From NCBI GenBank assembly GCA_009843725.1, contig VYCX01000173.1, positions 1 through 10,177 of the forward strand: DNA of 10,177 nt, read 5' to 3'. Made by a program: the position numbers and the translations under genes. A model generated the notes under the pieces. That model had not been told where the DNA came from, made no database searches, and worked only from the letters and a program-made list of their open reading frames with translations. Each line of letters opens with the position of its first letter. Position 1 is the stretch's first letter. Shown here piece by piece: positions 5,724 to 8,359 of this stretch. Source of the stretch: Boseongicola sp. SB0675_bin_26 (lineage in GTDB: Bacteria; Pseudomonadota; Alphaproteobacteria; Rhodobacterales; Rhodobacteraceae).

Positions 5724-6596
5724 ATGACCATCAAGCTTGAGAACGGCCGTCTGCCAGACGAGGACGTCGCGCGATACTGGCGAGACGGGTTTCTCTTTCC
5801 GATCCCGGTCTTCAGTGCTGCCGAAGTGGCCGCCGCGCGAGACTCCTTGGAAGACATGGAACGAGACTGGCTGGATGCGGGTCTCCCCTTGCCGCTCAAC
5901 ACGTACAAGCGGGTGAATGCGCAGGTGGTCATGCCGTTCCTGGTAGACATCGCCCGGCACCCTGCGATTCTTGACGTGGTCGAGGGAATCCTGGGTCCGG
6001 ACATCCTTGTCTACGCCGCGGAGTTCTTCATCAAGGAGCCCAGGACGGCGTCGATCGTCAGCATGCACCAGGATCTCACCTACTGGGGGCTGGGAGCGAT
6101 TGACGGCCTTGTGACCGCCTGGTTGGCCCTTTCGCCCGCAACCGTCGAATCGGGCTGCATGGACTTCGTGCGGGGTAGCCACAAGCAGCCGATCCTGCCG
6201 CACGAAGACACGTTCGACGCGAACAACCTGTTGAGCAGGGGACAGGAGGTCAAGGTCGACATTGCCGACGAAGACAAGACGCCGATCACGCTGAAACCTG
6301 GCGAGATGAGCCTCCATCACGGACTGACCATACATGGCTCAGGGCCGAACGGTTCGGACGATCGGCGCATCGGCTGCGTGATCCGCTACGTGCGTCCCGA
6401 CATGGAGCAACTGGTTGGCGCCAATGACTATGCGATGGCGGCCCGTGGAAAGGACCGGTACGGGAACTTCGTCCACACGCCCACGCCGGACTCCCTCTTT
6501 GCGCCCGAAGCCCTCGAGCTCTACGACGAGATGCGGGCCGAGCAGGCAAAGGTCATGATGAGAGACGCCAAGAAGTCAACGGAGATCTATTCCTGA
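5724..6596 (+). CDS. Phytanoyl-CoA dioxygenase (PhyH) family Fe(II)/2-oxoglutarate oxygenase
   Basis: This is a 290-residue cytoplasmic oxygenase expected to hydroxylate an unknown substrate while converting 2-oxoglutarate and O2 to succinate and CO2. The fold's iron-binding facial triad is visible as His115-x-Asp117 (SMHQDLTYWG) and His204 (LTIHGSGPNGS). Arg214 or Arg215, about ten residues later, is the likely 2-oxoglutarate anchor. Other family marks are DGFLFPIPVFS (21-31), VTAWLALSPAT (130-140), ESGCMDFVRGSHK (142-154) and KPGEMSLHHG (191-200). The aspartate of the triad is present, so it should be a hydroxylase and not a halogenase. AGGGAG (5711-5716) lies seven bases before the ATG. 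Its TGA overlaps the ATG of the HD gene by one base, which implies coupled translation and a joint pathway. PhnY of phosphonate catabolism is a PhyH relative with the same kind of partner. The substrate here is not known. Confidence 0.92.
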   Translation: MTIKLENGRLPDEDVARYWRDGFLFPIPVFSAAEVAAARDSLEDMERDWLDAGLPLPLNTYKRVNAQVVMPFLVDIARHPAILDVVEGILGPDILVYAAEFFIKEPRTASIVSMHQDLTYWGLGAIDGLVTAWLALSPATVESGCMDFVRGSHKQPILPHEDTFDANNLLSRGQEVKVDIADEDKTPITLKPGEMSLHHGLTIHGSGPNGSDDRRIGCVIRYVRPDMEQLVGANDYAMAARGKDRYGNFVHTPTPDSLFAPEALELYDEMRAEQAKVMMRDAKKSTEIYS

Positions 6597-7213
6597 TGGA
6601 GCAAGTCAAGTTCACGGCCATGAAAGATGGCGACAAGGAGGACTACGACCTCCTTTCCATGCACGAGGTCGAATACGCGAAAGGCACGGCCGACCGGCTC
6701 CTGAAGGCCCTGGTCCAGCTAGACGAGAGCCTTTCCGGCTACCAGGTCACGCGGCTCGGACATTCGCTTCAGTCCGCAACGCGGGCGTGGTGCGACGGGG
6801 CCGATACGGACTGGATTGTTTCTGCCCTTCTGCACGATGTGGGCGACATATTCGCGCCCCACAATCACGACGAGTATGCGGCAGCGATCCTCAGGCCGTT
6901 CGTGCGCGAGCAATGCACCTGGGTGGTCCAGACGCACGGGGATTTCCAGCTCCTGTACTTTGGCGAGCATGTCGGGGCGGATCCCATGAAGCGCGATAGG
7001 CACAAGGGTCACATCTATTTCGACGATTGCGCTGAGTTCTGCGAGCGTTGGGACCAGTCGAGCTTTGATCCTGGCTATGGCACGATGCCGCTCTCGTTTT
7101 TCGAGCCGATGGTGCGTGAGACATTTGCCCGGGACGCCTACGATCCGGCGGTGTTGCGAAAGGGAGAGCGGGAGCCGCTGGTTGATCCGGAGCGGGCTGC
7201 CCGGCGATGCTGA
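6596..7213 (+). CDS. HD-domain protein, candidate PhnZ-like diiron oxygenase
   Basis: This is a 205-residue soluble HD-superfamily protein. Candidate metal ligands are His56 (RLGHSLQSA), His80-Asp81 (LLHDVGD), His91 (PHNHDEYAA), His114 (VVQTHGDFQ) and Asp153 (CERWDQSSFDP). From my memory of PhnZ the order and most spacings agree (24 residues between the first two histidines, 23-24 between the last two), with a shorter loop after the HD pair. PhnZ, TmpB and inositol oxygenase use this site as a mixed-valent diiron centre to cleave C-P or C-C bonds, not for phosphate-ester hydrolysis. Translational overlap with a 2-oxoglutarate oxygenase, as in PhnY/PhnZ, favours an oxygenase role. Positions I align with the PhnZ phosphonate-contact residues differ (Asp84, Gln118 and Glu150), so another substrate is likely. 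An ordinary phosphohydrolase remains possible. Ribosome entry may rely on coupling, since GGAG lies 11 bases upstream. Confidence 0.85.
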   Translation: MEQVKFTAMKDGDKEDYDLLSMHEVEYAKGTADRLLKALVQLDESLSGYQVTRLGHSLQSATRAWCDGADTDWIVSALLHDVGDIFAPHNHDEYAAAILRPFVREQCTWVVQTHGDFQLLYFGEHVGADPMKRDRHKGHIYFDDCAEFCERWDQSSFDPGYGTMPLSFFEPMVRETFARDAYDPAVLRKGEREPLVDPERAARRC

Positions 7214-8272: not shown

Positions 8273-8359
8273 GCGGTCGTGGCGGAATTGGTAGACGCGC
8301 AGCGTTGAGGTCGCTGTGGGGTAACACCCGTGGAAGTTCGAGTCTTCTCGACCGCACCA
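8273..8359 (+). tRNA. tRNA-Leu (anticodon GAG)
   Basis: The 87-base gene folds as a class II tRNA. The acceptor stem GCGGTCG (8273-8279) pairs perfectly with CGACCGC (8349-8355), followed by discriminator A and an encoded CCA (8357-8359). The anticodon stem CAGCG/CGCTG encloses the loop TTGAGGT, so the anticodon is GAG (8307-8309), reading CUC and CUU. A long variable arm (about 8317-8331) and a T arm GGAAG-TTCGAGT-CTTCT complete the leucine pattern. Inverted CCGGAC/GTCCGG arms at 8377-8382 and 8401-8406 lie downstream but lack a U-run. Confidence 0.98.

Follow-up and report, generated by a model that had tools for sequence, protein, structure and literature searches.

A recurrent PhyH-HD gene pair in Boseongicola sp. 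and its possible role in carnitine-linked quaternary-ammonium metabolism

The contig VYCX01000173.1 of Boseongicola sp. SB0675_bin_26, which over its whole length of 10,177 nucleotides is the window analyzed here (G000:C167; draft genome of 4.1 Mb, 92% complete), carries two overlapping genes, encoding a PhyH-family Fe(II)/2-oxoglutarate oxygenase, here named PHY, and an HD-type protein with the fold of PhnZ, TmpB, and myo-inositol oxygenase (MIOX), here named HD. We propose that PHY hydroxylates, and HD then oxidatively cleaves, a quaternary-ammonium compound feeding gamma-butyrobetaine, carnitine, or betaine metabolism, a reading to which we assign a probability of about 0.5. The initial annotation of this DNA had postulated a 2-oxoglutarate oxygenase coupled to an oxygenase-type HD protein, and the recurrence of the pair, the retained ligand hexad, and a predicted fold nearest to PhnZ and TmpB support this coupling at the level of sequence and structure model.

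The PHY-HD gene pair and its proteins

The PHY stop codon and the HD start codon share one base (junction sequence TTCCTGATGG), as the initial annotation had read. The 80 closest named HD loci include 23 PHY-HD loci; 14 of these show the identical overlap and the widest spacing is 35 bases, so that the arrangement goes beyond chance. The pair is flanked by ctaD and lipB, both on the reverse strand, and none of the nine window proteins scanned against Pfam and NCBIfam is a phosphonate protein, both in agreement with the earlier description.

PHY matches the PhyH family (Pfam ID PF05721) with 106.6 bits (cutoff, 22) and has the intact HxD...H triad of His115, Asp117, and His204, which bears out its earlier assignment to the Fe(II)/2-oxoglutarate hydroxylases. 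Among solved structures, the closest is that of ThoJ, a non-heme monooxygenase (6zyk/6zyl), and the AlphaFold2 model has a mean pLDDT of 87.9. The lone exception at Asp117 among the 16 aligned relatives is a protein with Asn at this position (L168:6851-7714), which is followed by HD and then by a PF04116-type hydroxylase (L168:8407-9411) that may substitute for a failing PHY.

HD does not match any Pfam domain, and its assignment, which upholds the HD type given by the initial annotation, is based on NCBIfam matches below the cutoffs, a PDB profile search, and the predicted structure. The NCBIfam scores are far under the cutoffs (Phn-HD, 31.5 of 214.6 bits; PhnZ1, 28.8 of 300; TmpB, 23.3 of 300), and the profile search gives E values of 1.1e-11 for PhnZ, 1.7e-9 for TmpB, 0.5 for the best hydrolases, and 0.79 for MIOX. 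The closest structural matches of the confident model are PhnZ, TmpB, and then MIOX, far ahead of HD hydrolases. The complete H..HD..H..H..D hexad (H56, H80, D81, H91, H114, and D153) is conserved (Table 1) among 124 relatives, counted after removing one duplicate row and excluding rows that are shorter than 150 residues or contain a stop. HD is therefore probably an oxygenase-type HD protein and a candidate diiron enzyme. The YxxE loop of PhnZ and TmpB is absent, with Leu46 at the Tyr position and Tyr49 at the Glu position. Judged by its sequence, HD is neither TmpB nor PhnZ, as the curated cutoffs are widely missed and the loop is lacking.

Table 1. Features of the window and of related loci
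Feature	Location	Strand	Basis
PHY, PhyH-family Fe(II)/2-oxoglutarate oxygenase, 290 aa	5724..6596	+	ORF with ATG start; PF05721 match
PHY iron ligands HxD, His115 to Asp117 codons	6066..6074	+	His115 in 16/16, Asp117 in 15/16 aligned PHY relatives
PHY third iron ligand, His204 codon	6333..6335	+	Invariant in 16 aligned relatives
PHY stop TGA (6594-6596) and HD start ATG (6596-6598), one base in common	6594..6598	+	Sequence read
HD, HD-type protein with PhnZ/TmpB/MIOX fold, 205 aa	6596..7213	+	ORF with ATG start; PDB profile search; model
Leu46 to Tyr49, where PhnZ/TmpB have the YxxE loop	6731..6742	+	Alignments; Leu46 in 115/124, Tyr49 in 118/124 relatives
His56 codon, first hexad ligand	6761..6763	+	123/124 relatives
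His80-Asp81 codons, HD dyad	6833..6838	+	124/124 relatives
His91 codon, hexad ligand	6866..6868	+	124/124 relatives
His114 codon, hexad ligand	6935..6937	+	124/124 relatives
Asp153 codon, last hexad ligand	7052..7054	+	124/124 relatives
tRNA gene, downstream of PHY-HD	8273-8356	+	Rfam RF00005, 51.7 bits
PF04116-type protein (sterol desaturase/fatty-acid hydroxylase family) just after HD	L040:9646-10647; also L106, L107, L159, L064, L124, L168

We searched 149 Rhodobacteraceae genomes, one per genus, for HD at an E value of 1e-30 and for PHY at 1e-60, and found HD in 51 and PHY in 29 of them. All but one of the PHY genomes contain HD (28 of 29), the exception, G170, being a partial match. The two genes are adjacent in 23 of the 29 (aligned ends no more than 57 bases apart) and 1.6 kb apart in one, so homologues of the annotated pair are not rarely adjacent. 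HD is also found in 82 of 289 sampled alphaproteobacterial genomes, and no relative was found in viral contigs. The closest named HD relatives belong to Silicimonas, Roseovarius, Mesorhizobium, and other Rhodobacteraceae and Rhizobiales. The named loci are the best 80 of 583 confirmed relatives, and the counts therefore apply to close kin; they comprise 23 PHY-HD loci, 27 carnitine operons, and 30 loci of neither class, with heuristic open reading frame calls in the GC-rich loci and family assignments taken from one representative per cluster.

Gene contexts of HD and a possible pathway

In the 27 carnitine operons, HD is located between BKACE (upstream) and carnitine dehydrogenase (downstream), followed by an acyl-CoA dehydrogenase, an ATP-grasp CoA ligase, and an enoyl-CoA hydratase, and a divergent AraC-type regulator is found at 26 of the loci. 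The representative carnitine 3-dehydrogenase scores 595.1 bits (cutoff, 592); the representative regulator is closest to GbdR and the representative hydratase to crotonobetainyl-CoA hydratase, each under the cutoff. The hosts are mainly Mesorhizobium, together with Tabrizicola, Pseudotabrizicola, Hoeflea, and other Rhodobacteraceae. HD likewise adjoins carnitine dehydrogenase in two genomes of the family sample (G015 and G017), and a 52% identical HD is followed by BKACE and a carnitine-dehydrogenase-like gene at L227. In a quickly built HD tree, in which 55 of the 121 inner branches are weakly supported, the 29 carnitine-linked proteins correspond to two label changes and are placed among PHY-linked ones.

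The genome of the window encodes a carnitine 3-dehydrogenase (C296; 668.9 bits; cutoff, 592) and, on C125, clustered homologues of BKACE, enoyl-CoA hydratase, CoA ligase, and acyl-CoA dehydrogenase, in neither case with HD beside them; BBOX and TMLD are not found above the cutoffs. From its genes alone, the host is predicted to be able to use gamma-butyrobetaine and carnitine. The presence of HD relatives inside carnitine breakdown operons favors carnitine-like nitrogen compounds over phosphonates as the substrate, and the "unknown small molecule" of the initial annotation can be narrowed to a putative carnitine-linked quaternary-ammonium compound. Neither an HD protein in carnitine metabolism nor this PhyH-HD pair appears in the titles and abstract openings of the matches listed in the open-access literature.

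HD is also found with oxygenases of other families. A PF04116-type protein follows HD in 7 of 125 labeled loci, three times after PHY-HD (tblastn, at least 40% identity), with the Pfam match itself confirmed in two of the seven, and a TauD-family enzyme follows HD at L121. A 42% identical PF04116-type relative (L178:2696-3844) lies about 1.1 kb from a carnitine dehydrogenase gene in the genome of the window. Among the 29 best loci besides that of the window (L183 to L211), searched with a fixed protein panel over flanks of about 1.5 kb, PHY is upstream of HD in three, a TmpA/BBOX-type TauD enzyme is upstream in five, a divergent TauD is found in one, and BKACE is downstream in one; in the remaining 19, none of PHY, TauD, or BKACE is found within the flanks.

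The TauD partners may offer a hint on the substrate. An excerpt of PMC9296572 names N191 and N293 of BBOX and N187, N287, and R288 of TmpA as the residues binding the acid group, and in trimethyllysine hydroxylase the homologue of BBOX Asn191, Asp231, is believed to bind the alpha-ammonium group (PMC7764450, in part). In the alignment, the Asn191 equivalent is Asp in all six TauD enzymes whose genes immediately precede HD; these enzymes come from five alphaproteobacterial loci (two from one family) and one Pseudomonas aeruginosa plasmid; the six are mutually related and thus do not represent six independent events. Their second Asn is replaced by Ser, Thr, or Pro, the basic residue remains Arg or Lys, and the hydroxylase-type Asp is accompanied by the aromatic cage positions. 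A divergent TauD at L218 has Asn at the Asn191 position. Profile searches of the 149 Rhodobacteraceae genomes and of 19 genomes reached via other loci (18 with a carnitine operon) gave 71 matches elsewhere, of which 50 were read: 45 have Asn, 5 have Val, and none has Asp. The residue is not comparable in the PhyH-type partner of the window, to which the Asp comparison does not apply. On the plasmid (L041:6872-12829), a TmpA-like TauD, HD, a choline-binding protein, choline dehydrogenase, and aldehyde dehydrogenase are encoded consecutively, possibly as a mobile quaternary-amine cassette.

In the mechanism that we infer, including both activities, the diiron state, and the substrate, PHY would use O2 and 2-oxoglutarate to hydroxylate one carbon of a quaternary-ammonium compound, and HD, with a mixed-valent diiron site and O2, would cut the bond beside the new carbinol to give a carboxylic acid, in a reaction modeled on PhnZ and TmpB (C-P bonds) and MIOX (C-C bond). 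The product would enter the gamma-butyrobetaine, carnitine, or glycine betaine pathway encoded elsewhere in the host genome. As the leading candidate, PHY would convert trimethyllysine to 3-hydroxytrimethyllysine, which HD would cut at C2-C3 to gamma-butyrobetaine and a two-carbon fragment. The pattern consists of a single HD family with several oxygenase partners unrelated to one another, a carnitine setting in several genera, and a partner residue fitting an alpha-amino acid that has a trimethylammonium tail. Hydroxylation and subsequent oxidative cleavage of a quaternary-ammonium compound would be its simplest shared explanation, and trimethyllysine could account for most of it. A bacterial two-oxygenase route from trimethyllysine to gamma-butyrobetaine, with a PhyH-type hydroxylase in the window and a trimethyllysine-hydroxylase-like TauD type elsewhere, is nevertheless a tentative suggestion of rather low probability.

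Weighing the proposal against alternatives

Several observations weigh against this proposal. PHY lies far from HD in 4 of the 29 genomes that encode it, and where PHY relatives occur apart from HD, they have other neighbors (transketolase at L161, a secretion-type ABC transporter at L163, and a gene of the dimethylsulfoniopropionate [DMSP] demethylase type at L164). A matching hydroxylase is not present in every HD genome, as 23 of the 51 lack PHY at an E value of 1e-60; with HD relatives also present within carnitine operons or next to other oxygenases, the earlier view of a self-contained module is not supported. BBOX/TmpA-family matches (E value, 1e-50) occur in 23 of the 51 HD genomes and in 21 of the 98 others. 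Among the 23 PHY-less HD genomes, 14 have no such match at this threshold and 9 have one; the predicted Asp-type TauD was not found, all seven genes read, from seven of these nine, having Asn (unread: two of the nine and second copies in two of the seven), which weakens the case for trimethyllysine. The Asp-type enzyme was likewise not found among the genes read from the 18 carnitine-operon genomes, and a hydroxylase is not seen among the recurring annotated genes of the carnitine operons. The carnitine-linked HD proteins form essentially one tree group, so part of the operon count may stem from the spread of a single operon. Carnitine dehydrogenase is found in 49 of the 51 HD genomes versus 66 of the 98 others (Fisher, 2.6e-5), but it is common anyway (115 of 149 Rhodobacteraceae), and the association is uncorrected for kinship and lacks an unrelated control gene. 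Finally, 30 of the 80 loci belong to neither class, and in many of them HD lacks any recognized partner.

Many of these 30 have a solitary HD at the same chromosomal site, with a Tle1-like gene on one side and valyl-tRNA synthetase on the other, which is one site with PHY variably present or absent. A molybdopterin-binding hydroxylase subunit and the Tle1-like protein recurrently flank the PHY-HD or HD-only site (L069:4683-6983 and L119:6746-7813). The three neighbors flank PHY-HD and HD-alone loci alike, and we therefore dismissed them as functional partners. At L164 (L164:4765-11564), the HD-less PHY relative is encoded with the DMSP-demethylase-type protein, a flavin mononucleotide 2-hydroxyacid dehydrogenase-like protein, a thiamine diphosphate enzyme, and formimidoylglutamate deiminase.

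A rather unlikely alternative, though the best of those considered, is that the substrate is gamma-butyrobetaine or carnitine itself. PHY would hydroxylate one of the two, and HD would split the resulting hydroxylated acid, such as a 2,3-diol, into a two-carbon acid and glycine betaine, which would bypass carnitine dehydrogenase and BKACE. The position of HD between exactly these two genes, with no hydroxylase among the recurring ones, would fit such a shortcut; the genome of the window has no BBOX above the cutoff, so that PHY could replace it, and MIOX provides a precedent for C-C cleavage (PMC8177086, in part). However, a shortcut next to an intact operon would be redundant, and the HD-coupled TauDs have lost the acid-binding Asn pair of BBOX (residues as given in the excerpt of PMC9296572).

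We consider it improbable that HD is a conventional metal-dependent phosphohydrolase that accompanies PHY because both belong to one regulon and not because they catalyze consecutive reactions. PhnZ, TmpB, and MIOX are clearly separated from the other structural matches, the profile E values of PhnZ and TmpB differ from those of the best hydrolases by many orders of magnitude, and the partners are recurrently oxygenases of differing families (PhyH, TauD, and the PF04116 type); for reasons of fold, profile, and partners, we rate a simple hydrolase low.

Oxidative C-P cleavage of a phosphonate by a variant of TmpA/TmpB or PhnY/PhnZ is very unlikely, even with PhnZ and TmpB nearest to HD in profile and fold and with some HD relatives paired with TmpA-like enzymes (334 to 357 bits in five proteins; cutoff, 400). 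The Phn-HD, PhnZ1, and TmpB cutoffs are missed by far, the YxxE loop and phosphonate genes in the window are absent, and the HD-coupled TauDs have kept neither of the two phosphonate-binding Asn residues of TmpA, although they retain Arg or Lys at the position of the Arg. On these grounds of cutoffs, loop, context, and partner residues, we rate a phosphonate pathway low, in line with the doubt already voiced in the initial annotation.

Another methylated onium compound, such as DMSP or a betaine-lipid head group, is the least likely substrate. In its favor are the DMSP-demethylase matches adjoining the HD-less PHY relative at L164 (484.5; cutoff, 410) and a TauD-HD pair at L216 (504.9), and the GcvT-like gene after PHY-HD-PF04116 at L064. 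Against it, these loci are few compared with the 27 carnitine operons, the gene at L064 is under the cutoff (164.5 of 410), and nothing in the data points directly to a betaine lipid.

Comparison with known systems

If the proposed hydroxylation and cleavage of a quaternary-ammonium compound by PHY and HD is correct, the logic of a hydroxylase plus an HD oxygenase known from phosphonates would have been adapted to quaternary-ammonium compounds. Rhodobacteraceae and Alphaproteobacteria of this kind turn over a good deal of the betaine-type nitrogen found in sea water and near roots, and the pair would point to a possible origin of gamma-butyrobetaine in aerobic bacteria. The reading yields a short list of substrates that can be addressed by one enzyme assay.

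TmpA/TmpB, which degrade 2-trimethylaminoethylphosphonate, differ from the pair in that PHY is of the PhyH and not the TauD family, and that HD reaches only the 23.3 of 300 bits for TmpB, lacks YxxE, and has relatives in a carnitine and not a phosphonate context. Compared with PhnY/PhnZ, which degrade 2-aminoethylphosphonate, HD is 20 to 23% identical over the aligned fold, has Leu46...Tyr49 in place of YxxE, and lies in a window without phosphonate genes. MIOX works without a 2-oxoglutarate partner (PMC8177086, in part), and its sequence similarity to HD is not significant; the reading proposed here would place C-C cleavage by an HD oxygenase behind such a partner.

To our knowledge, no HD protein belongs to the known route of bacterial carnitine catabolism by carnitine dehydrogenase and BKACE, in whose operons the HD relatives are found. 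The TauD partners of HD relatives resemble trimethyllysine hydroxylase in the hydroxylase-type Asp and the aromatic cage positions. In classical carnitine biosynthesis, an aldolase and an aldehyde dehydrogenase act after the hydroxylation, whereas here one HD diiron oxygenase would perform both steps and replace the two enzymes of the eukaryotic pathway.
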